The position numbers were made by a program, and so were the translations under genes. Positions 6,240-45,966 of a DNA stretch of 49,424 nucleotides are shown here, one piece after another. Origin of the DNA: Globomyces pollinis-pini (Eukaryota > Chytridiomycota > Chytridiomycetes > Rhizophydiales > Globomycetaceae); the NCBI GenBank assembly GCA_025399215.1, contig MU621219.1:1-49424 (forward strand). Reading direction: 5' to 3'. Position 1 is the stretch's first letter. Every line of letters starts with the position of its first letter. The notes beneath the pieces were generated by a model. The model was not told the DNA's origin. It did not search any database and saw only the letters and a program-made list of their open reading frames with translations.

Positions 6240-6266
6240 CGTCAGTTTCTCAAATTTTGAGTGAAA

Positions 6267-7123
6267 ATGCTTCAGCAAGCTCTCTTTTTCTACAACTTCA
6301 GTTCAGTAATAGTTTTCAGTACCGGGATTTTATCATTTCTTGTATCATTATTCTTATTCAGGCAATTCTTTATCAAAACAAATTTTTACAAATTTCACCT
6401 TGCTCTACTGGTTCTATTTAATGGTTTCAATATGTGTTTTCGTTATCTCAGATTAACGGGAGATAATAATGCAGTGTATGTGATTGGCAATTGGTTACAG
6501 GTATCAACTATTTTGTTACTCGAATGGGTTCAGTATGACCTATTGAAACTTGTATGTATTGCTAGTACGTTCCTAACAGTGCGGAAAGTAGAATTGTTTA
6601 GACTAATCTTGATGATTCTTACACTGATAGGATTATCTGGATTACTCTTTATCAAATTGACGTTTCAGTTGGGTGATGGGAGTATTATGGATAAGGTAAG
6701 CACCGCATCTAATGATGAAAATAGTGGAATCGATTTGGTTCTATCATAACGACTGCGTTTGTTCAGTTATTTTCCCTATGCCAAGGAGTTTACATGACTT
6801 TTCTGATGAAAAGTCTGTGTCTAATGAAAGACAAATCAAGATCTGACTACCAAAAACATGTCAAGAAATCTTATTGGCTATTAGGATATTTTGTCACTTC
6901 CAATGTCCTATGCGCACTATGTTACATTTTTGGAATTTTCATACGAGGACCAGAAGGAAGCGCGAACGCATTTAATTACCATTCACTTTCAAATTTTGCC
7001 ACTGTATTTCTTTCTAACCAGATCCTGGGACTAGTATTTCTATTCGAGTCAATCAAAGCTATGAAATTCGGATCTGAGGTGGACAAAACGAAGATGATGA
7101 GCAGACCGAAAAGCGATAGGTAG
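6267..7123 (+). CDS. Seven-helix membrane protein, family member 1 (unrecognised family)
   Basis: Two exons (6267-6695, 6725-7123) joined over a 29-nt phase-0 intron give 275 aa. I do not recognise the family. Seven hydrophobic segments are visible: residues about 7-30, 40-60, 70-95, 112-132, 145-170 (spanning the splice, WNRFGSIITTAFVQLFSLCQ), 190-213 and 228-255. Conserved words: FNGFNMCFRYLRL (helix 2), NWLQVSTILLLEWVQYDLLKLVC (helix 3), GDGSIMDK just before the intron, YMTFLMKSLC after helix 5, and LSNQILGLVFLFESIKAMKFGS in helix 7 and the tail. First of five head-to-tail copies. An ACGCGT lies 28 bp upstream of the ATG. A GTG-initiated extension of two codons is unlikely. A receptor or transporter is possible; function is unknown. 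Confidence 0.85.
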
Positions 7124-7669
7124 TTAATAAATTTTTTCTATACCTGTTGCATTCTGTTAAAATTAATATTGCTTCTATGCAGTCAGCAATACACTGTGGC
7201 TTTTAATACGACTATTTATAGTACAACAGTGTAGCCTTTTGAAAATCCCATACTTCGTAGAGTATTTTAGTTTTTAGAGCAGAACTACACGTTAATTAAT
7301 CTCAACGTTACTGAATTGGTGGGATTCACAGATGATATACTGAATACCAAAATAGTCTTATTCAAGACTTTTATAGGCCTTTTTGTACAGATATCTATAA
7401 TATCAGATTGTGATTAATAAAGTGGGCATGCATTTTGAAATGTTCCAATGACTTGTGTGATAGTTCTTCGAACACATTCCACAAACGAAGATAATCAATC
7501 CAATCGGCCAATATTAGTATTTTGGTAAGAGCACCCTAACATAAGCTAATTATGAGATAGCAGAGTTAGCCAGATGTCACTGTACAATCTAACACAAATA
7601 CATATACCATTCAAAAACATTTTTAGGGAAATTTACGCGTTACGCAACTTGGAAATATATAAAGTCGAA
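7124..7669. other. Intergenic spacer between family members 1 and 2
   Basis: About 545 bp without a supported gene. An in-frame ATG at 7574 would extend member 2 by 32 residues, but that extension has no counterpart in the paralogues. The only element I would point to is ACGCGT at 7635-7640. Confidence 0.5.
7635..7640. promoter_or_regulatory. ACGCGT element, family member 2
   Basis: ACGCGT 30 bp before the ATG at 7670, nearly the same distance as in member 1. Confidence 0.45.
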
Positions 7670-8532
7670 ATGAATATTCAGGAAGCGCTCATTTTCTACA
7701 AATACACTTCCATTGCAGTTTTAACAACTGGAATTTTATCAATACTCATATCGTTATACTTATTCAGGCAATTCTTTATCAAAACAAAATTTTACAAACT
7801 TCATATTGCACTATTGGTTATATTTAATGGTTTCAATATGTGCTTTCGTTATCTCAGATTAACAAGCGACAATAGTGTAGTGTATGTTATTGGGAACTGG
7901 TTACAAGTGTCAACTATATTGCTGCTTCAATGGGTTCAATATGACTTATTGAAACTTGTATGTATTGCTAGTACGTTCCTAACAGTGCGGAAAGTAGAAT
8001 TGTTTAGAATAATCTTGATGATTCTTACACTGATAGGATTATCTGGATTACTCTTTATCAAATTGACGTTTCAGTTGGGTGATGGGAGTATTATGGATAA
8101 GGTAAGCACCGCATCTAATGATGAAAATAGTGGAATCGATTTGGTTCTATCATAACGACTGCGTTTGTTCAGTTGTTTTCCCTATGTCAAGGAGTTTACA
8201 TGACTTTTCTGATGAAAAGTCTGTGTCTAATGAAAGACAAATCCAGATCCGATTACCAGAAAAATGTCAAGAAATCTTATTGTCTATTAGGTTACTTCGT
8301 GATTTCCAATGTTCTTTCATCATTCTGTTACATTATTGGTATATTTATACGAGGACCAGAAGGAAGTGCGAATGCATTTAATTATCATTCTTTGACAAAT
8401 ATTGCTACTTCATTGCTTTCTAATCAGATATTGGGACTAGTATTTCTATTCGAGTCAATCAAAGCAATGAAGTTTGGATCTGAAGTTGACAAAACTGGGA
8501 CAATGAGTAGACAGCGAACAAAAGCCAATTAA
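7670..8532 (+). CDS. Seven-helix membrane protein, family member 2
   Basis: Two exons (7670-8101, 8131-8532) give 277 aa, with the same seven hydrophobic segments and motifs as member 1. The start at 7670 (ATGAATATTCAGGAAGC) aligns with the paralogues' starts; the upstream in-frame ATG at 7574 does not. The central 297 bp (7947-8243), intron included, is almost identical to 6541-6837 of member 1 (3 differences seen), while flanking coding sequence is clearly more diverged. This points to recent gene conversion. The tail reads FLFESIKAMKFGSEVDKTG and is basic at the end. Confidence 0.85.
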
Positions 8533-8638
8533 TAAATTGTATATAGCACTACCTTATTGTGTACTGCTTTATTTTTAAATTGAATATGGATAACACTTGG
8601 AATATTCATTGCTGAATTTAAGCAAAGAGATCTAATTT

Positions 8639-8644
8639 TCGCGT
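8639..8644. promoter_or_regulatory. TCGCGT element, family member 3
   Basis: TCGCGT 28 bp before the ATG at 8672. Confidence 0.4.
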
Positions 8645-8671
8645 AGTGAGTGGTCTAAATTTTTACCTAAA

Positions 8672-9474
8672 ATGATTCTCCAAGAAGCGCTCGATTTCTA
8701 CAACTACTCAGCAATAGCAGTCTTAGTCACAGGGATTTTATCACTACTCATATCTTTCTTCTTACTCCAGCAATTCTACTTAAAGAAAAATCTATATAAA
8801 CTTCATATTGCTCTATTAGTGTTATTCAATGGCGTCAATATGTGTGTCCGTTATTTTAGATTAATGGATGACAGCACGGTTTTGTACATAGTATGTAATT
8901 GGCTTCAAGTGATCACGATTTTGTCATTTGAATGGGTTCAATATGATTTGCTGAAATTAGTATGCGTTGCTAGTAGTTTCTGGACAGCCCGAAGAGTGCT
9001 GGTTTTTAAATTCACTATATTGCTAGTGACATTGATTGGATTTATTGGGTTCTTGTGTGCTAGAGTAACCTTTACACCCGGTAATGGAGATATAATGGAT
9101 AAGGTAAATAATCTTTCTGATATTAAAAATAGTGGAACAGATTTGGTTCCACTGCTGTAACAGCTTTAGCTCAAGCATGTTCGTTATCCCAGGGAGTTTA
9201 CATGACATTCCTTATGAAAAGCTTATGTCTTCTGAAAGATAAATCCAGATCAGATTATGACAAATACGTTAAGAGATCTTATTGGCTACTTGGGTATTTT
9301 GTTATTTCTAATGTGTTTTGTGTATTGGCATACTTAATCGGGGTAGGAATTCGAGGTGAAGCAGGTACTTCCAATGGATTGAACTATCATTCTTTTTCAA
9401 GTTTATCGGTTATATGCTTTTCAAATCAAATATTGGGATTGGCATTTTTATTTGAATCTATTAAGATGATGTGA
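8672..9474 (+). CDS. Seven-helix membrane protein, family member 3 (short tail)
   Basis: Two exons (8672-9103, 9133-9474) over a 29-nt phase-0 intron give 257 aa. Same family: VNMCVRYFRL, NWLQVITILSFEWVQYDLLKLVC, GNGDIMDK before the intron, WNRFGSTAVTALAQ after it, YMTFLMKSLC, and LSVICFSNQILGLAFLFESIK in helix 7. The protein stops after ...FLFESIKMM, so it lacks the KFGSD-plus-basic tail of about 20 residues seen in the others. The rest is intact, so I treat it as a functional shorter variant rather than a pseudogene. TCGCGT lies 28 bp upstream of the ATG. Confidence 0.83.
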
Positions 9475-9604
9475 CAATGTCAAACAAAACGTAACTAGAA
9501 GTCTATGAAATTAAATATATTGCATATGTATAATAAACATTATCTTTGCTTTTTGAAATAAGATCTTTTGTGAACTCTCAGTTAATTTAATGCGAGTGTT
9601 TTTA

Positions 9605-9610
9605 ACGCGA
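9605..9610. promoter_or_regulatory. ACGCGA element, family member 4
   Basis: ACGCGA 19 bp before the ATG at 9629. Confidence 0.4.
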
Positions 9611-9628
9611 CACGACATCACAAAATAG

Positions 9629-10496
9629 ATGGATCTTCCTAAAGCTCTATTATTCTACAACATCACGACACTCACGGTTTTAATCACTGGGATACTATCA
9701 TTAATTATATCCATGTTCTTGATCAGACAATTCATTGCCATTAGAAAGTGGTACAAACTTCAAATTATTCTATTACTTTCATTTAATAGCTTCAATATGT
9801 GTTTTCGTTATCTGAAGCTAACAAATGACAGCAAACTTGTTAATATAGTAGCTAATTGGCTCCAAGTGATTACGATTTTGCTATTCGAATGGGTTCAGTA
9901 CAACTTGCTGAAACTGGTATGTGTAGCAAGTACTTTTTGGACAGTGCAAAAAGTAGAATACCTCAAATTTACTATAATTTTCATAACAGCTATTGGTTTT
10001 ACAGGATTAATTTGTTCAAAGGTAACGTATATGCCAGGGGATGGAAGTGTAATGGATAAGGTAACCAATCAACGAAAACTTTAATCATTTGTAGTGGAAT
10101 AGATTTGGATCTACTGTAGTAACAGCGCTAGCACAGGTTTGCTCGTTATGTCAGGGAATATACATGACTTTCTTGATGAAAACCGTGTGTGTGTTCAAAG
10201 ATGAGAAGGCGATGCTCAACTTTGATAAATATGTCAAAAGATCTTATTGGATGTTGGGATACTTTGTAATCTCAAATGTACTTTGCGGAATAGCTTACAT
10301 AGTTGGAGTATTTATTCGAGGACCAGATGGTTCTCCAAATGGATATAACTACCAGTCCTTTTCAAGTATTTCTACCATATTCCTTTCTAATGAAATATTG
10401 GGATTGGTGTTTTTATTCGAATCAATTAAAGCCATGAAATTTGGTTCAGATGTAGATAGGATAAAGACTCGAACAAAAGAGAAAACCAGAAGATAG
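9629..10496 (+). CDS. Seven-helix membrane protein, family member 4
   Basis: Two exons (9629-10060, 10095-10496) over a 34-nt phase-0 intron give 277 aa. The conserved blocks are FNSFNMCFRYLKL, NWLQVITILLFEWVQYNLLKLVC, GDGSVMDK | WNRFGSTVVTALAQVCSLCQG, YMTFLMKTVC, KYVKRSYWMLGYFVISN and LSNEILGLVFLFESIKAMKFGSD. The C-terminal tail is basic (KTRTKEKTRR). The intron is at exactly the same position as in its neighbours but differs in length and sequence from the shared 29-nt intron of members 1 and 2. ACGCGA lies 19 bp before the ATG. Confidence 0.85.
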
Positions 10497-15772: not shown

Positions 15773-16616
15773 TCATTTGGATACTGTTTTCTTTCCGGCA
15801 TCAGGTCCAAACTTCATGGCTTTGATAGATTCAAATAAGAATGATAAAGCAAAGATTTGATTTGATAAAAAAACAGTAGATACGGTAATTAAGCTGTAGT
15901 AAAGGTATGAATTGTAGGTACCATTTAGTGCTTTATATCTCGGTGCAATTGCGAAAGCAATAACACACAATATTATAGAGACAATGAAATAATTCAAAAA
16001 CCAGAAGGATCTGTTATAATATTTGTCAACGTTCTTCTTGGTTTTCTTATCTTTTACGTGACAGACACTCTTCATTAGATATCGCATATATACGCCTTGG
16101 ATAAGATTGTACACTTGTATTAAAGTTGTCGATATAGGGGCCCCTATGTTCATCCACTATGTAATTAATTTTGGATTCTAGAACCTTATCGAAAACACTA
16201 TTGTCACCCACTACAAAATTGATATTCACAAAAAGCAATCCAACAAATCCAATCAGTACAAATAGCAATAACGTGTAATTGACAAGGTTAATTCGTCTTG
16301 ATGTCCAAAAAGTACTAACAACAGAAAGTAACTTTAATAGTTGATTTTGCATCCAAACGTAGAACATCAAATCGAATACATGAAGCCAGTTATAGATTAT
16401 GGAAAGTGGGATATAATCGAAATAAGTAAATCTAAAAAATCTAGCTGACATTGTTAGGCCATTGGTTATCGAAAGCAACGTGAATTGAAGTTTATACGTT
16501 TTAGGACTCTGTCTATATTGATAACCAAAGTATCCTCCAATAAAAATCCCGATTATACCTGTTATTAGTGAGATTATATTCATAGTCTGAAATAATTGGA
16601 ATGCATCAATAGACAT
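15773..16616 (-). CDS. Seven-helix membrane protein, dispersed family member 6
   Basis: Two exons (16616-16185, 16156-15773) over a 28-nt phase-0 intron give 271 aa. Same family as the 6267-11712 array: TYKLQFTLLSITNGLTMSARFFRF, YNWLHVFDLMFYVWMQNQLLKLLSVVSTFWTSRR, GDNSVFDK | WMNIGAPISTTLIQ, GVYMRYLMKSVC, and LSNQIFALSFLFESIKAMKFGPD with a basic end. The conserved intron position and the WM/WN after it confirm the relationship. It lies on the opposite strand, outside the tandem array and separated from it by LMBRD2 and HYLS1, so it is an older or transposed copy. Confidence 0.83.
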
Positions 16617-20199: not shown

Positions 20200-21029
20200 T
20201 CAGGTAAGAGTTTTCGGAGTTTGATTTTGCCGACTTTCATCAGACCCAAATCTTAGACATTTGAACGATTCAAACAACAACGCGAAGCTGATGATTTGCA
20301 TTGAAAATGCAGATATAGCGAAGTGGCCAAGTGCTGTTGCAAAAGAGGTATTTCGAATCATCGACAGTATGATGTAAAGAATTGTTGTCAAAATTATAAA
20401 AATATTGAAGCAAACCAAGTAGATATTGGAAAGTCTTAAGTACTTGTCAAAAGTTTGTTTAGCTTGTGCAGTTAATTTCCCATGGTTTACTTTTCTCATA
20501 ATCTTGGTCATGTACAAACCTAAGATAATACTAACCAGTTGATTTAAGATTGTCACAACCAATGTCCCATATTTATTCCACTAAGGTAAGTCGATGTTGA
20601 TGTTACCTGGCTAAATACGGAACGATCCCCATTTGTGAAGAGGTATCCAACGAAAAAATAAGGAATGAATCCAATAAAAGTGATGAGCATGATAACATAC
20701 TGAATGATTCTAACAGTTTTAGGGGTGATTTGAGTATCCAAAATACAAGCGATCTTCAATAATCGAAATTCAATAAATACATACGATAAAATTGAAAGCA
20801 CATTTAATGAATTGGATATTGTGGACATTAATCGACGTTGTAGAAACCAAATGTTGAGTAAATTTATTGCATTGGTAATTCCATTTAAAAAACATACAAC
20901 TGCTACGTACAACAGGTAATGTTTCTTCAAAACTGTGTATTTTCGAATGAAATTCGCGCATATCGTAAGGTTAACAACACAAGTGATTCCCATAATTACT
21001 AAGCAGGTCTCAATGAGTAGTTCTGACAT
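20200..21029 (-). CDS. Seven-helix membrane protein, dispersed divergent family member 7
   Basis: Two exons (21029-20607, 20580-20200) over a 26-nt phase-0 intron give 267 aa. Divergent, but in the same family: HYLLYVAVVCFLNGITNAINLL, SNSLNVLSILSYVFIEFRLLKIAC, NGDRSVFSQ | WNKYGTLVVTILNQ, LGLYMTKIMRKV, and FALLFESFKCLRFGSDES at the end. Seven hydrophobic segments are in the same spacing. The splice is confirmed by the return of the family's W-N after the intron. It is divergent from POC5, and the ACGCGA at 21051-21056 lies 22 bp upstream of its ATG. Confidence 0.8.
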
Positions 21030-32711: not shown

Positions 32712-35700
32712 TTAAGCAAAACCAAATCCTAAAATATTAGTTTCTACCTTTTTTTTACCTGTTCCACACTCTGAAATCGCAGTAAGCAAAGCATTACGCA
32801 GTTGTTCATATGACTCATACTGCGGCAAGTCAATTTGATTGAAACTATAATGAGACTTCATTTTTGTTACCATGTATGAGCACTTGGAAGTCGTAATGCT
32901 GACGAAAACTCTTTATGAATTTGGAATTTCTGTATTCCAGACGAACCTTGGAGTTGTGCAAACCCACCTAAAGGAACCTTACTAGTCCCTGTTGCAAATT
33001 GGATGAGTTTGGCACGTTCTTCTTGACTAAAGCTTCTAACTGCTCTCCAAAACCATTGAATCTGTGGAGATGATGAAGTGTAATTCTGGTAATCAGTGTT
33101 ATTTTTCCAGTCATCAATATCGATATCTGGAAGACCTGATATTAGCAGCTCCAATTCTTGTTCGTTAAATATTTTAATCAAGTCTTTTGGTATAATTTCA
33201 TGAAACCCACTAAGGAAGCCTTGAATTTGGTCTTTGATGGCAACAACAAGACGCTGTTCTGTTACTAATTTCACATATTCAACTTTGTTCTCTTCTGTGA
33301 CAGGAATATTTCGACCATTTGGTTTTAAATCAATAATCTTTTGTCTCCCAAAGTCATCTACTTCCATGCTAAATGTTAAATCCAATACATCAGTAATGTC
33401 GTTGTTAAGCATCCAATCCATTGACTTGTAGAATTCGGGTTCAACTGCTTCCAAATCCTTATGATCAACAGGGGCATTAATCATGCATTTGTAAAACGAT
33501 CGGGTAAAGTATGCATCTAACAAACGGCCATCGTAAATTGCTTTGCCAATAATCCGTCCGACAAATTTGAAGTAAAATATATGGTCTGGGTTGATACCCG
33601 AAGATCGGTTAGGTTGATACGTAACCTTATCAGCTGCAGTAGGGCGGAATAAGGCGTAATCAGGATTGAACATTTGCATTGCTAACGCTGAATACCACTC
33701 TCTGGTTACACCGCCAGCATCAACTCCTTCCTCATCTCGGAATCGAACATTTAATTTTCCATATTTAATTGTATTTCCAGATCTACCTTGTAGCTGTTGA
33801 TATGAGTCTTCAAATACATATTGTCGTCTAACACTGAGTTGAATAGATCCATGATTAAGTCGTTCATTTGGTTTATGAAGTTGCTGATTGAAATAAGTTC
33901 GTTTGTTGTCAAACTGTAAAACCTTTGGATTTTGAACTAGCAAAGAGAATGACCCATTCATTAACGTTGGATTATTTCTCACCATTGCGTTCAGCACTTT
34001 CTTGTTTGCCTCAGCAAAACGGAAAAATGTATCTTGATCTACATCAGCAATATCAGATTGCTGTTTAATAAGGATACTTTGATTGTTGTTTGACTGTGTA
34101 GAATGCTGCCCTTTTGAAATAGACACAGATGGTTTAGACACCACCATAAAAGATTCAATGAAAGGAAGTAATACAGTGGCAATATGTATCAATTCTTCAT
34201 TTTCATCGATTACTGCCATACACTCCCCAAGCTTGTGCCATAATTTTCCCAGTTTTAAATCTTCATATATCTTCTTCAGCAACTCATTTTCTGTCAACTT
34301 AATATTCTCGTCATTGTTGGGTTGAAATTTAGCCAGATAGGTGTCTAATGAAACAGTTAATTTAAATTCAATACCTTGGTATTTTAAAAACATAAAATCA
34401 ACACTCTTTAGAATACGTAGTAGTTTCGCTTGAACAGAAGATGTACTGGTAAATGGTTCCAGGACAGTAGGCTCTATGTATTGTTTCGAGTTTTGAGTCT
34501 TCAGTGTGTCAATTAAAGTTTGCACATCGCCAATCATTGAATCTCCAAGTAGTTGTGCTGAAGAAATGAGTTCCCTGGTGATGATTGCCAAATTTTCTGG
34601 ATAAGAGCTCAAGTGTTGAATTACCAACAAGGTATATTGAAATGTTTTGCTGGAACACACAGAGTCTTTAAGTACATTCACAACCGCACAGACACTGCTT
34701 TCTGGTAAGTTAGGAAGTTTTATCTCTCCTTTCTCTTTGTCTTTTCCATCATCTTTTTCTTTTGATGGAGTCTCAAGGATTGCTTTCGTCTTAGATGTAG
34801 TTGTGGTACTAGCTGGTTCACTGGCGGAAGACAAATCTACAATTGGTTTCTTTCCTTTTTGATTGTATTTTTTGGCTGCTATATGTGCTAATGGTCGCAA
34901 CACATTAGATAATAGGTGCATAAGTTGCTCCAATACAATTGAGTTTTGCAAAAATGTAGCCTTTTCCAATAAATTCAGCAACATAACAACAGGACATGAC
35001 AAAACGGCTGGCTTCTCTTTTCCTTTACCTTTCTTTGCAGATTTTGGTGTTTTCCCGGTTATTTGAGACTCGGATTCTGTCAAAAAATATTTTCCAACTA
35101 AAATACTGGACGATACAAGATGAGTCAACGATTCTAAGCAGCGTTGTGCAACTAGATTTGGAACAGGTTCTGAGCTTGAGATATTGGTTGGTGTAAATGC
35201 CAGAGGTTCGATAACGCCCAATCCCTTAGCACGAGTCTTCAGTGTCAGTTGTGAAAAAGCTCTATCTACACTTGCCAAATCATGACTGCCATTAGCTAGG
35301 ACTGAAAGTAAGAGTCCTAAGAGCTCTGTTCTTGTCTTTGAATTTTCACATAAATTTGTCAAAAGCAAATCAAGTGATGCCTTTCCAGTTGGTTCTGGAA
35401 TAAAAATCAACCTCAACAAACTAGCTAATCCAGATTGATCCAAAAGCTGTATACTTTCCTTGTGTTGATTGTGCTTGCCCTTCGCAGTCGCTGTAGTTGT
35501 ATTTGGTAAAATATCAGTAATGTCAGGGACAGCTGCAGCATTCGTCCTTGCAGGTGTTGGGGCGCTTTGAGCTGCAGCAGCTTGCCGTTGTTCAGCTTCC
35601 AAGCGTTCTTGCTGTAATACTTCCTCTCGAATATGGATGGGGAGAGCATTCAAAAACTCGGCGTTGATTTCTGAACTAGCTAAAGATGGTTCCAATGTTT

Positions 35701-38700
35701 GAGCAGCTCGTTGTTCAGTTAAATATTGATTAATAACTTCCTGTCGTAATTCATCTGGAAGTGCTTCGAGGAATGTGACATCGATACCAGAACCTAATAT
35801 TATTTTATTTTAAATTACCTGTGATGTCAACGGGCTGTCCATCTACAATTACAACCACTCTTTCTTCTTCTACAACCGCTGGTTCCGTGGATTCTTGTGG
35901 AACACCATCTGTGGTGGATGCTGGGTTATTAGTAGAAGGTGCAACATTGTCACCAGGTGCTGCTGTGGACTGGCCTTCTGCTGGTTCGTCAACAACCATA
36001 TCTTTTTCACCATCTTCACTTTCTTGAAGTTTTGCTTCTTCCGCTTTTGCTTCTTCTGCTTTTTTCTTTTCTTCAAGTGCTGCTTTCAGTTCTGCTTGTA
36101 ATCTTGCCGACTCCTTCTCTGCTTCTAGTCGCTTTTGCTTTTCTTCTTCTGCTTTTTTCATTGCTGGAGGAATAAGTTTATTCAACATTGAATTAATTAA
36201 TCTAGAAGCTTTTGCATTGACTGCTGTTCCATACATTAGTCTTACTTCCTGCTTCCAACGATCCTCTGTGAATGATAAAGTGTATCCATGAACAACAGCC
36301 AGTCTCTTGTCAGTTTCATTTCGTTCATCTGGTTGTGTAACGGCGTTTGTAGCAGATATATTGTTGCGGGAGTTAGTTGCAGCTGTCCCTCTATGGGCCG
36401 AGGCAGCACCAGGAGCTGTAAATCCAGTATTACCTGGGGCTGCTCTTCCACGACTAAACATTTGTTCATAGAGTTCGTGAGTAAAGTTGCCAGCATATTC
36501 ATCAACTAGATCAGAAATTTCCATAGTAGATCTGTTTCTAGCTTGTGCATTATCGGTTTGGCTCACCAAGAGAGGATGTGACATATCTTCAAGTCCATTA
36601 GCTGTTCTGATAGTATTAGGTGGTCTACTGAAAACTTGAAAGTCTGTTTCGCTGTTTCCAGCCAAACGACCGACTCCTTCTGCCCAATGAAACTCAATCC
36701 CATTTGGCCCCAGTCCCACATCCAACATTTGCCTCATTCTAGGTACAATTCCAGCAATATGATCGGCTAAAACAACTTGTTAGCTAAAAAAAGATCAAAC
36801 CATCACCATCTGGAGCAAATGCTTCCAAATCAATCTCATCATCATCATCATCAGATTCTGTATCATACTCCATCATTTCTTCATCCACTCGACTCATATC
36901 AGGAGGGTTTGGCAGGAAAGGGTTATCTTCCTCATCGATGGCTTCTTCATCACCTCCAAAGATATCATCCTCATCTTCCACTTCTTCGTCATCATCATCC
37001 TCATCATCGTCGTCATCATCTTCTTCATCATCCCAACTCATTGCGTTGTCATCGTCAATAATATCCACATCTAGCTCTGGATTCAAATCATCATCTTCTG
37101 AAGTCATCATATCATCAGCATCTTGAGCGCCATGATATGGTTGTGGTATCACAAGTTCCATTTCATCTTCAGTGGATGATTCCTAAGAGTTAACATCATG
37201 ATCAAACCTCATCTCCCGAGTCCTCACCACCTTCTTCAATAGCGTCATCCGCATACTCTTCATAAACAACTTCATCGTCACTGTCCATTGAATCATCATC
37301 TTCCGTTTCGGCTGTAGGTTCAAACATACCTAACGCAGAATTTCGATATAAATCATTCAGTTCTGATTCATCTTGCACTGATTCATGATCGATTTCACGG
37401 AACGCATTATCAAATGATGATGGTCCAGGTCCTGGTGTAACAAGTTTCTTTGCTTTATGAGCTCCAACTGCTATTTCGGTTTTACCCATTCGAATAGCAC
37501 ATCGTGATAATGTTTCCAAAGGTTTCAAAACCATAGCGACCACTTGTTGACTAGCAGGATGATGGATATCCAATTCCGCTAAGACAGTAGTAAAAACTCC
37601 AACAAAGCCCTTTTCAATCATCGTTTGTGCAATTTGAAAGGTATGATCATCCACAGGTGCATTTGGTTTTGCAGCCGGCAAATTAATGATACTCTTGGAA
37701 GATAATATTTTGTAACATAATTCTGATAAACTGATCAACTTTCCATATCGAACTTCTACCGCTACATCTTGTAATGCAATTGCATCTTTCAAACATTTAT
37801 AAATTGATTCCAATACAACTGTTCTAACCTGTTTCAATTCTAATGCATATTCATCTTTGTTTCCAGATTTCTTTGCATAACAAAGAGAGGTTACCAAACA
37901 ACTTGCCCAAGCACTTTCCGCTATTTTATTCAAGGACGCAGGTGTATCAGCAGGACTGATTTCATTTGAAAATTTAGCATCTCGAGGGAGTATATCAGAC
38001 AATAAATAACATAAAAATGGATTTTTACCAAATGATCGTGGTGTATGTTTTGGATTTCGTTTCAAAGATGCATTAATCAAATCAATTCTACAAATAGGAT
38101 ATGATATAATGAGTTCCGATAAAGACTGTAATAAAAAGCATCTTCGAATATGTCCTTTTTTGACGGCTTCATCATCAACAAACACTTCATGCTTTAATGT
38201 CATCAATTCAGTAACCAAAAAGTGTACTAATTTGCCTCCAACTGGTGATAATTTGTCCTCGGAAAACACATCACTAGGTACTTGAAACTTGACAGGTGTC
38301 GAAATTGGTGTAGTTTCAGCTTGATCATTTTCACTTGTCACCACAGAATCTTTCTCGGTGGTCAATGGTGTAGAATGAGTAATTAAAAACTGTTTTTGTT
38401 TTGGATCATACTTTGCCAATTTACAAACTACCGATGACGCTTTAATAAACGTCTCTGGATCTCGACAAATAATATGATTGGCAGTTTTTACAAAATTACC
38501 AGCATCAATCGATCTTGATCGTGGTACAGTAAGCAATTGTGTTAATTCTTCCTCCATAGTTTTACGTAATTCTTTTGGTGATTCAATACAATGTCTTAAA
38601 ATCATCATTAGTAATGGATGCTGTGCAGAAAATTTGGCAATGTTTTCATACTTGTATAAAGATGTAATTCCACCTGCTTGGAAAAACATACAAGCTAAAT

Positions 38701-41700
38701 TCCAATTACGTGTTAATCGTACAATCATTCGTAAAACAGCATGAATCACATCATTATCGATAATATCCAATTTGAGTAATCGAATCAATTGTAAAATAAT
38801 CTTTTCACGATCATGTATGGTCAATTCTGGTGGTTTGTTGACAATGGTAGGTTCTTTAGGTGTAGTTCCTTCGGCTGGAAATTCCAATTTTTCTTCCACA
38901 GGTTCATCCAATAAAGATACATAAGCTTCCACAATCAGCAATAATGGTGTCAACCAAGTTTCAACCGTTTCCGCAATAGATAGTAATTCAATCAATAAGC
39001 TTCCAAAAGTAGTTGAAAGTGTTAGAGCAGATGATTGGAACTGTACATCCGAAACAATCATGGCATATAATCTTAAATGTATAGTCAATTTAGTTTTGGT
39101 TTCTAAACAAACTTTGTCATCCTTTGTTACCAATTTCTCTTTGAATTCATTCACAATCGGTATAATCGCATTGATAACTTTTGAAATATCTGCTTTTGAA
39201 ATCAAACACAAGATTTCCTTTAGTGAAAAAATAAGTTCAGCATCAAGTTTATCCAACAAGAACAATGCTCGTTCCATAATAAAAGGCTTATTGGTTTCAC
39301 GAATATCTCCAAGTGATCGTGATAACTCTAAATATTCCTTATTTTCCACTTCCGCTTCCTTTTTAGGTTCTTCTGGTTTAGAACTGGACTCTTGTACAGA
39401 TGTATCCATGACAGATGAAGATGCTTCAGCCATACTAACTGAATTCAACATATCAACTGATTCTCCAGCAGATACCATACTTGCATCTTCGGTATTTTCA
39501 ACGGGGGCGACATTCGGTACTGCAACAGTTTCCAAATTTGAAGCCCCAAGATTATCACCAACAACAGGTGCCACAATAGGTTCTACAACAGGTTGGACAG
39601 CAGGAGCAGGAGGAGGAGCAGATGCAGCAGTAGCAACAATCCCAGGATGATTCAACAAATAATCCGCAGCCCTAGCTACATTATTTCCACACCTTGTCAA
39701 TGCAATTTCAGCAGCACCTTGTGGGAATCCCATTTCAACCAATTGTTGTACTTTGGCAGGATCAACAATCACACGTGGTGGTGCAGCAGTTGTTTGTTGA
39801 TTCATAGCCATATTCATGGCTCGACTGAAAACAGTACCAGCAATGTTTTCCAAATTCGTAAATGTGAAAATATTTCCAGTTTCGGATACCGTTTCCCCTT
39901 CACCATTCAAAATACAAACTAGGATGGAAGTTACTAATTTAGTAGTTGATGTAGATAACAATAAAATATCTTCATGATTCCAAATTGATAAAATAGGTTT
40001 GAAAATAGCAGATCGTAATTGTAATAAAAATAAGGTAGAATCAAAATAATCCGGTAATTTCTTATCTTTTTGTCGATTAATTAATGTAGTTGTATATGGC
40101 GAATCATTCAATAATTTATGATTTACTATTCCACTGAAAATCTCCAAGATAGTTTGAATAGTTAAATTAATTCGATCCACCAATAATTTATCAGTATCCA
40201 ATATTGATTTCGCCGTTTTGTCAATGGTACGTAACATGGTCAAATGCATATTCAATACTTTGAATAATAAATCAATTCCATTGACATTATAAAATGAGAG
40301 TACTTGAATAGTTTGTAATGTTTGTACTGATTTATCTTCAATTAATAATACTTTGAGGTATGGTAAACTGGAAGAAAAATATTCAATCACAAATTTATCA
40401 TCACCCGGACATTTCCAATTTAAGACATTACACATCACACTACTAAATTGATCGACAATTAATTGAACATTCTTTCGATGTGGTCCGTCAGAAACTCTTC
40501 TACCACAAATAAGTTTTAACATTCCTCGATAAACTCCAATCAAATCCGATGGAATTTCATCAACCAAATGGAATAAATATTGAGTATTTTTGGCAGCTGG
40601 AGTGTCACCTGTTTCAATAGTTACAGGATGTTCTAAATCAAATTTAAGTGCACCAGATCCAGATGGTGTGATAGAACTAGAAGGTTCATTTAATATAGGG
40701 ACTGTTTCATCAGTAGAAGGGACAGTCACTGTAGTAGCAACTGCATCCAATTTTTTTCCCAATTCCTTTTGATACCATTCTTTAGGTACATTGTCAATCA
40801 AATGAATTTTTTCAAATGCACATACTCTAAACAATCAATCATTAAAAATAATACCTAGCAATTTCAGCAAATTGTTCAATTAAATGGATTCCATCAGGAT
40901 TAGTAAAAGTAGCAACGATAGCATTTACACTTTTACCATGACTGAGTGAATGAGAACAATATAAATCAGTAAATAATCGAATAAAACATTTCAAGGTCAC
41001 CAAAGCTCGAAAGACATTAGCAGCTTCAGTAGCAAAAGCTAAATCTTTATCTATCAGAATAAAAAATCTTTAAAAAAAAAATTACCATTGACGTAAATAT
41101 ACTTCAACACCTTTGATTCGGTACTATCTTCCAAAAATGGTTTGATTTTATCTAGAGCTAATTGAATTTCTTTGACCATAAGGTTGACAGCTTCAGTAGG
41201 ATTGGATTCAATAACAACTCTGAATAAATATGATAATGAAGCACTAGATGGACTGGTAGCAAAATCATGTGGAATCGATGCCAAAGAATAAAACCTTAAT
41301 AATAATGGTACACCATTACATTTCACAAATTCTTTACAATGTTGAGCATTTTGAAATAATCCTTCCATAAACTAGAAAATAAAAAAATAAAATAGATTTA
41401 CTCTTGAACAAACATCAATAAATTGTGCCATTCGACTTTCCATTTTGTTGTCTGGAAATTTCAAATAAGGATTATCACTTTTTTCCATATTCACATCCAC
41501 TCCTTCAACAATCAATACACATGCTTCATGTTCATCTGGCAACATTTGTTCACCAATTTCTACAACTTTCCGTAACATATTGACAATAGACATCATGACT
41601 GATTCTTTAGTGGTAGGGTGATGTCGCATAAATTCATCAATTGAATTTCCGACTAGATGTGGTACATCATTATCTAATAATGACCGTAAATGATCTTGTT

Positions 41701-43955
41701 TGGTAAAAACGGATAAGAATGTATCAATAGGTGATGCAGCTTGAAAAGCGGCCAATCCAGTAGCATTCAGACAAAGAGCACCAAAAGCATTTGGTAATGC
41801 AGAAATGACTTCAGCTGATACAGGTAAATCTTGATTAGCAGCTTTCAAAAATGCGGTAGGTAAATTAGCTTCTTGTAAAATGGTTAGAGATGTAGGTTCA
41901 TTATGAATAAAGGTAGACATAATATTGACAGCTAAGATGAGATTCGAAATTCAATACCTAATCCAAATGATCCAATATGAGAAAATAATTTTGAATTTTC
42001 AAAGATGATTAAAATAGTACTTGGTAAAGAACTATCAATCAAATTACGCATTCCATCAGCACTTCCAGAGTTTTGTAACATATGTAAGATTAATTTTAGA
42101 ATAGATCTTAAAACAGGCATTCGATATAGTAAATCTAGTTTTTTTTAAGAAATAAAAATAATAAACCTTTGTTTTTTTGATTAGCACCAGGATCTAGTAT
42201 AGATGAAGGTGAAATATCTTCTTCAGTAAAGAGGGGTTTCATTTCCATAACTTTATCTACTTCAATTTTAATTCTTGAAACTAATATATCAAGTCCATTT
42301 GCACCGGTGAAAATATTTAAAGAAGTTGGGAATCCAAACAAGATATTATCCAACATATTTGCACATTTTGTAACATTCTTTGAATTAATGATATTTTTGT
42401 GATTTACTTTTAATTGTAATTCATTCTTATTTTCCAAACCAGAGATGAGTAAAGGTATAATTCCAGCGGAAATAATCATATTCCCACCCGATTGAGTACT
42501 TAATACAAAAGTGAGAAAAGCAAATAGAGTATCATTAAAATCTTGACCATATGTTGTATCTATCATGAATAATTTGAGAATGATACCATCAGTATTTGAC
42601 AAAACTTTACGTAATAAAGTCATTAAATAACCATGATTGGCAGAGACATTAAGAGAGGATAGTACCTCTGTTAATCTCCCACGATAATGAGCCAAACTAT
42701 CTAAAAAGGAAAGAACAATAAGTTGAATATCCTAAAAGAAATAAGGATGCGTTAATCATACCAAAGGAATTAGAATTTTTTCATTTGTTAAAAACTGAGA
42801 GACTTTTTGAATCAAATCCGGTTCCAATAAAAAGATTTTACTACCAATTATTTCTTCGGTATATAAATGCGAAAGAATAGAAATTGACATGAATCTAAAT
42901 TATTTTTTTAGTTATTAGTTTTGATACCTGATTGACATTAAAGATTGACGTAGTTCAAGTGATTGTAATGCAAAACAAATTCTGACACGATGAAATAATT
43001 CAAAGAAACGATCTTGGGAAATATTATGTTGAATTTGTAATTGTTTAGCGATTTCTAATGGAGAGTCGATTGAATTAGGTGAATGATCGAATAGAGATTT
43101 AGATAATAGAATAGAGACTTGATCCAAAGAATCTTTTTTTGGTTGTTTTGAAAAGAATTCCTTGTCATCCGATTGTTGATTTTTCGAAAGTTTTGAAGGT
43201 GATTTTGAGTTTTCATCTGACGTTGAAGTAGGGTTATCTGCATGTGAGGGATGCTGAAAGATACCTAATATTCAGTATCAGTATAATGTTGAAAGATACC
43301 TATTATTAGGAATACATTTTAAAGATACCTATTGTTAGAAATATTATTATTCGAGATACCTGAAAGAGAGGAAAGTTTATCGAGTTCAGTTTTAGTTCGA
43401 TAAAAGTGGTATTTGATTGTTGTAGCATCTTGAGGTAATTGAGTATTTGAAAAGATTGAGTTTAAATCGGTATCGTTCCAACGATCAGCCAGTATCTAAT
43501 GTGAGTTTATGAAAGAGTACCTAAAGGTGAGTTTATTAAAGGGTACCTATGGTAAGTTTATGAAAGAGTACCTAAGGTGAGTATAAGAGTATGATGAATA
43601 CTTGTAATTTTGATTGAGCGGTAACAAAGATAGCTTTTAAAGCTCTTTGAGATGATATACGTTGAGCAGGTTTTAATAAGAATTTCAAGACTTGATAGAC
43701 TATATGAATTTCAGCTAGGGATAGAAACGAGATGAGATGCTACTTGATTAGTTTTTTTTTTTGGAATACTTCGAAAGAATTGTACAAGTTTCTGTTAGTA
43801 GAGTTATCCCATAGTATTTTAGTTAAATTTAAGCAAGCCAAGATGAGGTTAGCGTCATGATGATCTAATGGTTTTGATTGCATTGGTAATTCGTATCTAA
43901 GATTTAATTTAATAATAAGATACTTTTGTACTATTGATTGTAGATAAGAATCCAT
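32712..43955 (-). CDS. Giant HECT E3 ubiquitin ligase, HUWE1/TOM1 family
   Basis: HUWE1/Tom1 ligases ubiquitinate histones, ribosomal and repair proteins. About 3,400-3,600 aa. N-terminal armadillo-like DUF908/DUF913 region (about 43955-40834, e.g. [16 protein letters not shown]). UBA domain near 39640-39770 ([20 protein letters not shown]). Acidic tracts at 37202-37340 and 36784-37161. A charged Ala/Glu/Lys helix near 36060-36180. DUF4414-type repeats ([26 protein letters not shown]) near 35640-35790. C-terminal HECT domain with GGVTREWY, the LPSAHTCFNQ active site and the FGFA end. The catalytic Cys codon is split by a 26-nt intron (32845-32870); a 30-nt intron (32729-32758) precedes the last residues. 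Two N-terminal introns are tandem arrays. Start may be 43955 or an upstream ATG near 44000. Shorter than human HUWE1, near yeast Tom1 length. Confidence 0.93.
43265..43359 (-). repeat. HUWE1 intron made of three tandem mini-intron units
   Basis: On the minus strand the intron is three abutting GT...AG units of 31 (43359-43329), 29 (43328-43300) and 35 nt (43299-43265). Each begins GTATCT and ends in TAG (AATAG, AATAG, ATTAG), with CTAAC/CTAAT-like words near the 3' end. The exon after it also starts GTATCTTT. Removing all 95 nt joins SLS to GIFQH in frame. Confidence 0.8.
43496..43601 (-). repeat. HUWE1 intron made of four tandem mini-intron units
   Basis: On the minus strand four abutting GT...AG units of 30 (43601-43572), 25 (43571-43547), 26 (43546-43521) and 25 nt (43520-43496). 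The last three are near copies starting GTACTCTTTCATAAACT (or GTACCCTTTAATAAACT). Removing all 106 nt joins AQSKLQ to ILADRWND in phase 0. Confidence 0.83.
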
Positions 43956-44221: not shown

Positions 44222-44302
44222 AACCCTAGCACTTACTCTTGTTAACCCTAATTACTACTAACCCTAACTCAAATACTAACCCTAATTACTATATAACCCT
44301 AA
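44222..44302 (+). repeat. Cluster of five telobox-like AACCCTAA words
   Basis: AACCCTAG at 44222 and AACCCTAA at 44244, 44260, 44278 and 44295, so starts are spaced 22, 16, 18 and 17 bp, all in one orientation. They resemble the TTAGGG telomere repeat in reverse, but as separated single copies, as in Tbf1/telobox promoters, rather than a continuous telomeric tract. Confidence 0.7.
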
Positions 44303-44378
44303 CGAAAGTAACACTAATTACTAAAAGTAAAACACTAACACCAAATTAAAAGTATTATAAATAACCAAATTATGATTA

Positions 44379-45296: not shown

Positions 45297-45966
45297 TTAC
45301 TTGAACATGCATTCTTTCATAAACTAAATTTACATTATTTTGTTTTGATATGACTTGGCTATATCTTTTTTATACCAGTAATTAAGCTAAAAACTATTTG
45401 TTTTTATACTAGTAAATTAAGCTAAAAACTATTTGTTTTTATACTAGTATATTAAACTAGTTTTTATATGTACTAGTGAATTAAACTAAAGTTACATGTT
45501 AACTTATAGTGTTAACTAATAGTAGTTTAAATAACTTCTTGTACTAGTACATTATACGAAATTAGAAAAAGAACCCTGTTTGTCTCCATCGATACCTTAT
45601 TGTGTAATCACGTTTGATTTATCCGAATCACAAAAAAGTTACTGGTAGAAAGCTAAACTAACCTTCGATAATCATATTTAACTTTCTCGTGATTTTAAGC
45701 CAAATAAATTAAAACCTGTTATAGAGTATCTGACTGTTTAGGCAAGTTTTTTTTCGTATTCCTTTTTTTCATCTGTCCAAGAAGGGATACATACCGTTAA
45801 CTCAATACATTTACATATGAGATATACCAGGTTTTATTATAATACATATCAGTTGTAAAAATTTCCATGGAAGATCTCCCTTGTTTGTTTTATTGTTACA
45901 TTGGTCACGTCATTCTCCCAAGCTTGCCCTCTTCTCTATATAAATATGAGTAAACTCTCTAATAGC
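45297..45966. other. Intergenic with tandem repeat
   Basis: AT-rich spacer of 670 bp. A degenerate tandem repeat occupies 45371-45490. No gene seen. Confidence 0.55.
45371..45490 (+). repeat. Degenerate tandem repeat, unit about 35 bp
   Basis: Units start TATAC[C/T]AGTA and continue with AATTAAGCTAAAAACTATTT. Two good units (45371-45404, 45405-45439) are followed by two decayed ones (from 45440 and about 45468) that keep ACTAGT...ATTAAACTA. Located in the 3' region of the GPI-protein gene. Confidence 0.7.

Follow-up and report, generated by a model that had tools for sequence, protein, structure and literature searches.

Results

The 106-nt intron of the HUWE1/TOM1 gene

A 106-nt intron in the HUWE1/TOM1 gene of the chytrid Globomyces pollinis-pini (Chytridiomycota, Rhizophydiales) is likely composed of four complete minimal introns set head to tail with zero-length exons between them, being one of an estimated few hundred such runs in this genome, in which the signals of each unit would be under selection and growth would proceed at least partly by tandem duplication. 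The features directly visible are the exact AG|GT abutment, the intron-sized units, a branch-like motif near its usual place, and the restoration of a conserved protein upon full removal. From these, we infer that each unit could be defined as an intron by itself, and excision probably occurs unit by unit.

The intron (array A) occupies 43601-43496 of the minus strand of the window, which is the whole of contig C130 (49,424 nt) of the 18.5-Mb, 459-contig genome. Its units measure 30, 25, 26, and 25 nt, and all joins read TAG|GTA. Unit 1 (43572-43601, GTATTCATC...CTCACCTTAG) begins at the outer donor, placed after AAATTACAA in phase 0, and is followed by unit 2 (43547-43571, GTACTCTTTC...CTTACCATAG), unit 3 (43521-43546, GTACCCTTTA...CTCACCTTTAG), and unit 4 (43496-43520, GTACTCTTTC...CTCACATTAG), which ends at the outer acceptor before ATACTGGCT. 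The coordinates, the lengths, the GTA[C/T] starts, the TAG ends, and the exact AG|GT joins described in an earlier note on this DNA were all reproduced. Also, its description of three of the four units as near copies holds, being units 2, 3, and 4 81-88% identical to each other, with 65-70% identity between these and unit 1. An independent detection by Tandem Repeats Finder places the repeat at 43491-43582, with a period of 25, 3.6 copies, and a score of 133. No resemblance was observed between the units and the following exon. At the branch position, the units carry CTCAC or CTTAC, a looser form that leaves units 1, 3, and 4 outside the YTRAY count given below.

When the 106 nt are excised in full, both flanks are in phase 0 and the product reads SKLQ|ILADRW across the junction. 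The solved chains of human HUWE1 align over this junction without gaps, and in Globomyces sp. JEL0801 the HUWE1 protein reads SKLQILADRW at the same site, so that protein alignments and deposited proteins support a removal of array A as a whole. The earlier note had also proposed alternative retention of units; in its productive form, this proposal is not supported for array A, because each of the 15 possible combinations of retained units produces a frameshift or a stop.

The host gene extends over 32867-43955 of the minus strand, with its predicted start at 43955 and the HECT-bearing reading frame at 32867-35695; our gene model splits it in two near 42130 and places its end at 32712. The identification as the E3 ubiquitin ligase HUWE1/TOM1, already made in the earlier note, agrees with the Pfam DUF908 match (residues 33-345 of the 461-aa N-terminus obtained by splicing), with the five solved HUWE1 chain sequences that match this N-terminus, and with the JEL0801 orthologue, whose protein is 97% identical. 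Single introns of the same gene provide a size reference, one upstream (43740-43769, 30 nt) and two downstream (42895-42927, 33 nt; 42732-42761, 30 nt), all on the minus strand. In genes of at least 200 aa, the median length of predicted introns is 29 nt and 437/475 do not exceed 45 nt, so a unit indeed has the length of a normal intron of this genome, as had been claimed. The remaining 38/475 are longer than 45 nt, and the gamma-tubulin gene has introns of 69 and 545 nt.

Other repeats and a possible small gene family were observed in the window. A set of six reading frames, each some 150-190 aa long, resembles by eye a group of paralogous small membrane proteins, and four of the six are arranged in tandem (6261-10084, 16047-16616, and 20553-21029). 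At 45367-45459, outside HUWE1, there is a 35-nt tandem repeat of 2.7 copies with 93% matches. Telomere-like TTAGGG/TAACCC repeats are found directly upstream of HUWE1 (44256-44307) and of gamma-tubulin (locus L027); AGGGTTA is not enriched upstream of predicted genes (2/98 versus 1.6% of random windows).

A further array in HUWE1

The earlier note overlooked a second array (array B), which follows the first one after a 136-nt exon. Array B covers 43359-43265 of the minus strand, or extends to 43238, and has units of 31, 29, and 35 nt: unit 1 (43329-43359, GTATCTCG...CTAACAATAG), with its donor after CTCTTTCAG in phase 1, unit 2 (43300-43328, GTATCTTTAA...CTAATAATAG), and unit 3 (43265-43299, GTATCTTTCAACAT...GAATATTAG). 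The 27-nt segment that follows (43238-43264, GTATCTTTCAGCAT...CATGCAG) is ambiguous, being either a fourth unit or an in-frame exon encoding GIFQHPSHA. A reading of array B as four units was our initial one. However, the segment is open and in frame, its JEL0801 equivalent is GIFQHPSYA, and the gene model too keeps it as an exon, which favors three units followed by an exon; the JEL0801 protein skips exonic sequence elsewhere, and its own model is an imperfect guide. If array B is counted as four units, 14 of the 15 retention combinations disrupt the protein and one leaves the frame open.

The units of array B start with GTATCT, the third one with GTATCTTTCA, and the same start is present in the 27-nt segment, which is possibly exonic. 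This shared start would be the expected trace of a tandem duplication of an exon stretch bearing AGGT. The segment may be an intron unit turned into an exon, or the exonic source of array B.

Arrays in other genes

The gamma-tubulin gene (contig C15) has three multi-unit introns, of four, two, and three units. Array 1 (L027 1451-1558) is 108 nt long (29+24+26+29) with AAG|GTA as its first join, array 2 (L027 1825-1876) has 52 nt (26+26), and array 3 has 86 nt (29+29+28) and is located at IIQ|GEVDPTE (locus L028), residues also present in the deposited G. pollinis-pini protein P0001. Arrays 1 and 2 are missing from this protein, which is 100% identical to the spliced product over 326 aa; deposited proteins are annotations rather than reads and show the end product alone. 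All 15 retention combinations of array 1 are out of frame or introduce a stop. In addition, the last 27 nt of the 545-nt gamma-tubulin intron (L027 2198-2742) resemble another abutting unit (AAG|GTAAGC..CCAAG). HUWE1 and a WD40-like gene (locus L007) have two multi-unit introns each, and arrays may cluster by gene.

The longest array described here is found in a PhyH phytanoyl-CoA dioxygenase gene, where ten units add up to 285 nt at IFK|QPDIGGEV, a position aligned without gaps to PHYHD1; its last 117 nt are one intron in the model and were split by eye into the last four units at AAG|GTA. The similarity among its units is graded from 100% downward, and 1019 of the 1023 retention combinations disrupt the protein, with 4/1023 leaving the frame open. 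Further arrays lie within coding sequence in the genes for DCP1 (117 nt, 29+27+33+28), gamma-COP (32+26), a CDKL-type kinase (29+31), an M48 peptidase (28+29), and DOP1 (29+26+24), the last one inside the Pfam Dopey_N match, for which the match span was what we checked. Near copies of units also occur in the PhyH and DOP1 arrays. Solved-chain alignments are free of gaps at the junction for gamma-tubulin arrays 1 and 2 and for the PhyH, DCP1, gamma-COP, CDKL-type kinase, and M48 peptidase arrays. Also, a 92-nt array (28+32+32) is missing from the deposited protein P0241, a small protein whose distant match carries PF00300, and the sole difference between both products is 3 extra aa elsewhere.

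For the 20 distinct arrays at loci retrieved by pattern, in a pass that covered both strands (eight arrays lie on the second one), 18 fit at least two abutting introns flanked by coding stretches once an abutment bonus of +4 was added to the gene model, and 8/20 did so without it. At loci L002 and L008, no chain of abutting introns was obtained, with or without the bonus. The model without the bonus parses gamma-tubulin array 1 as 79+29. AAG acceptors are predicted in 46 of 570 introns (sample of contigs C1 and C2 with the window, 249 kb); given the AAG|GTA joins inside the gamma-tubulin and PhyH arrays, AAG ends may be acceptable to the G. pollinis-pini spliceosome.

Frequency of arrays in the genome

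The spacing between same-strand TAGGTA pairs, counted on both strands of the 18.5 Mb, gives 21, 252, 149, 15, 115, and 62 pairs in the bins of 11-20, 21-30, 31-40, 41-50, 51-60, and 61-70 nt, with a first peak at intron length and a second one at two units. The mirror-pattern control, whose word is commoner in the genome, gives 203, 195, 182, 165, 185, and 146 in the same bins, without such peaks. With the background set by the 11-20 and 41-50 bins, at about 18 each, the excess is about 365 inner units. Moreover, a three-part array pattern has 239 matches versus 134 in the mirror control, again with the mirrored word being the commoner one. A first pattern specific for the branch site (24 matches versus 9 in the control) was set aside because its lower gap limit missed short units.

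In contigs C1-C84, 153 junction pairs group into 115 arrays, of which 91, 16, 3, 4, and 1 have 2, 3, 4, 5, and 6 TAGGTA junctions, respectively, part of them by chance; this count covers the TAGGTA spelling only and leaves out two-unit arrays and joins such as AAG|GTA. In a smaller sample of 249,424 bases, made up of the window, which was not a random choice, and 200 kb from C1 and C2, we found 10 chains of at least two close [CT]AG|GTA junctions, not all of them necessarily introns; three equally long first-order Markov sequences contained 1, 1, and 0. A simple gene model of these 249 kb predicts 570 introns at 559 sites, seven of them with abutting units. Two of these sites are in the window; among the five outside it, one (74+34) is probably spurious and the donor of another is an unusual GTTT, so the multi-unit share of about 1% of intron sites is a rough value. 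The exons between consecutive predicted introns have 0 nt in 11 cases (5 in the window) and 1-11 nt in two, which suggests that zero-length exons are a class of their own and not the tail of a distribution of tiny exons. Altogether, we estimate that the genome would hold a few hundred such arrays.

Signals and divergence of the units

The units of the arrays were picked by TAG and GTA alone, without use of the branch site. In the 167 units measured, whose length is 20-37 nt and between which there is nothing, YTRAY is found 8-19 nt from the 3' end in 87, versus 21% in shuffled sequences; over this set, the units show the features of a U2-type spliceosomal intron (GT donor, branch site, AG acceptor, and usual length). 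For single introns, the corresponding values are 190/325 and 21.5%, the former being biased upward because the gene model rewards the branch motif. The median length is 29 nt in array units and single introns alike.

The similarity between neighbors is a different matter. The initial 100 of the 239 pattern matches yield 98 distinct adjacent pairs, of which 16 are above the 99th percentile of unrelated pairs and 82 are not recognizably related. The tandem duplication of a complete mini-intron proposed in the earlier note is well supported for units 2-4 of array A but does not carry over as such to many arrays, which, because so few adjacent pairs are clearly alike, would be either old and diverged or of another origin. 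The signals behave otherwise: in the units of dissimilar arrays, YTRAY is present in the same interval in 68/140. Also, C1-C84 contain 70 junction pairs two units apart, with a middle TAGGTA in 38 and without it in 32; we estimate that about 14 of these 32 are due to chance, and some may have a middle junction of other spelling. Inner signals that persist while the sequences diverge point to selection on single units, and hence to their use.

Discussion

Proposed origin and removal of the arrays

According to the mechanism that we propose, an array would start with a tandem duplication at AGGT and would grow by duplication of units. Removal of any unit, or of the stretch from the donor of one unit to the acceptor of a later one, would rejoin AG|GT or exon|GT. 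Because every join is AG|GT, all excision orders would give the same mRNA, and since the product would be the same whatever the route, the copy number would be nearly invisible to the protein and the duplication of whole units would be tolerated as nearly neutral. In contrast, a unit that lost its donor, branch site, or acceptor would leave stranded sequence, with disruption of the frame in nearly every case, and such losses would be selected against. Then, the sequence would diverge while the donor, branch site, acceptor, and length are kept. The closely similar units of array A, PhyH, and DOP1 support growth by duplication, which we infer for most arrays; the diverged arrays that kept their branch motifs and junctions favor unit-by-unit use.

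A simpler explanation is that the array is an ordinary 106-nt intron with a minisatellite inside, in which only the first donor and the last acceptor are used and the inner AG|GT are passengers of the duplication. The near copies among units 2-4 of array A agree with this, and the existence of longer introns in this genome means that 106 nt could be removed in a single step. Moreover, when abutment is forbidden, the HUWE1 model has one intron of 106 nt and another of 122 nt in place of the arrays and scores nearly as well (69.2 versus 72.0). However, dissimilar arrays keep the unit length and carry branch motifs at more than twice the shuffled frequency, and next to the 153 one-unit pairs of C1-C84 more than half of the two-unit pairs retain the middle TAGGTA, whereas passenger junctions are expected to be more decayed. 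We consider this explanation unlikely.

Alternatively, short mobile introns, similar to introners, could have inserted again and again into AG|GT boundary sites and formed the arrays in this way instead of by tandem duplication. AG|GT serves as a proto-splice site, and the many adjacent pairs that are not recognizably related would fit with independent insertions. Nonetheless, for the one array A unit that was searched, 0-2 mismatches gave three matches, all in the array itself, and 3 mismatches gave three elsewhere versus 2 in the mirror control, so it is not clearly dispersed. The graded similarity within the PhyH array and the start shared by the array B units and the following segment, as a local duplication would leave, also argue against insertion, which seems to us rather improbable.

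A further alternative, in which array A would be coding or regulated sequence whose units are productively retained, draws on the open, in-frame 27-nt segment after array B and its JEL0801 equivalent, and is made very improbable by the disruption of the protein in every retention combination of array A and gamma-tubulin array 1. Finally, an assembly artefact is hardly credible: near-identical tandem units are easily miscounted in assembly, yet the units of array A differ from each other, most of the adjacent pairs listed differ widely, and the same spacing recurs at hundreds of places.

Four minimal introns placed head to tail are thus our preferred reading of array A. Extended to the genome, we are modestly inclined toward a class of polyintrons, with up to ten complete minimal introns separated by zero-length exons and excised singly in any order. 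These would behave as splicing-neutral minisatellites in which each copy is constrained to stay spliceable, and would supply new introns and, through exonized units, coding sequence.

Few cases of intron gain have been caught in the act. In a single genome with an estimated few hundred arrays, of which those observed range from identical copies to unrelated neighbors, the steps of duplication, divergence, and constraint would be open to direct reading and to comparison between strains. In addition, the arrays probe the limits of the spliceosome, that is, whether a donor and an acceptor sharing an AG|GT border can work in turn on 25-nt introns without an exon between them, and raise the question of how splicing leaves no unit behind, being almost every retention disruptive for the protein in the four arrays tested. 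Gene annotation is affected as well, because an array can be taken for a long intron or an odd exon.

Comparison with known systems

In the parts of the literature examined, the nearest relatives of these arrays are the ratchet points of Drosophila, the AGGT duplication model, and the stwintrons, none of them consisting of arrays of whole minimal introns. Among the papers listed by literature searches that covered few subscription journals, there was no report of such arrays. For introners, which share with the arrays a mass gain of introns, the terms 'tandem', 'chytrid', and 'Globomyces' are absent from the main text of a survey (PMC9860276); introners are dispersed copies, and the one array unit searched here is not clearly dispersed.

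Recursive splicing in Drosophila has in common with the arrays the juxtaposition of acceptor and donor as AG|GT inside the removed sequence, where a donor is regenerated once splicing has reached the point. In array A, the three inner joins all have this juxtaposition, with no exon kept. According to PMC8605326, ratchet points are found mainly in long introns and require a cryptic exon at the point, whereas array A has 106 nt in all and the Globomyces units, with the lengths given above, directly abut one another in runs of up to ten. Fungal stwintrons are complex intervening sequences too, and their removal takes consecutive splicing reactions; as described in PMC8469720, the inner intron interrupts a splice element of the outer one. 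A parsing of array A as stwintrons was rejected, since no splice element is split and every unit has an intact donor and acceptor joined as AG|GT, being the Globomyces units whole and consecutive.

The AGGT tandem-duplication model of intron gain (described in PMC4974935) shares the supply of both acceptor and donor by the AGGT at the duplication border, with the protein unchanged, and the recognizable tandem copies that it entails are found in units 2-4 of array A and in the 16 similar pairs of the listed sample. In fission yeast, PMC3629103 presents two genes that gained introns made of 24-nt tandem repeats, where the intron arises within exonic repeats and the proto-splice site is given as AGGC. 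In Globomyces, by comparison, the unit would be a whole intron, the arrays are present at many loci, and the signals are kept after the sequences have diverged.
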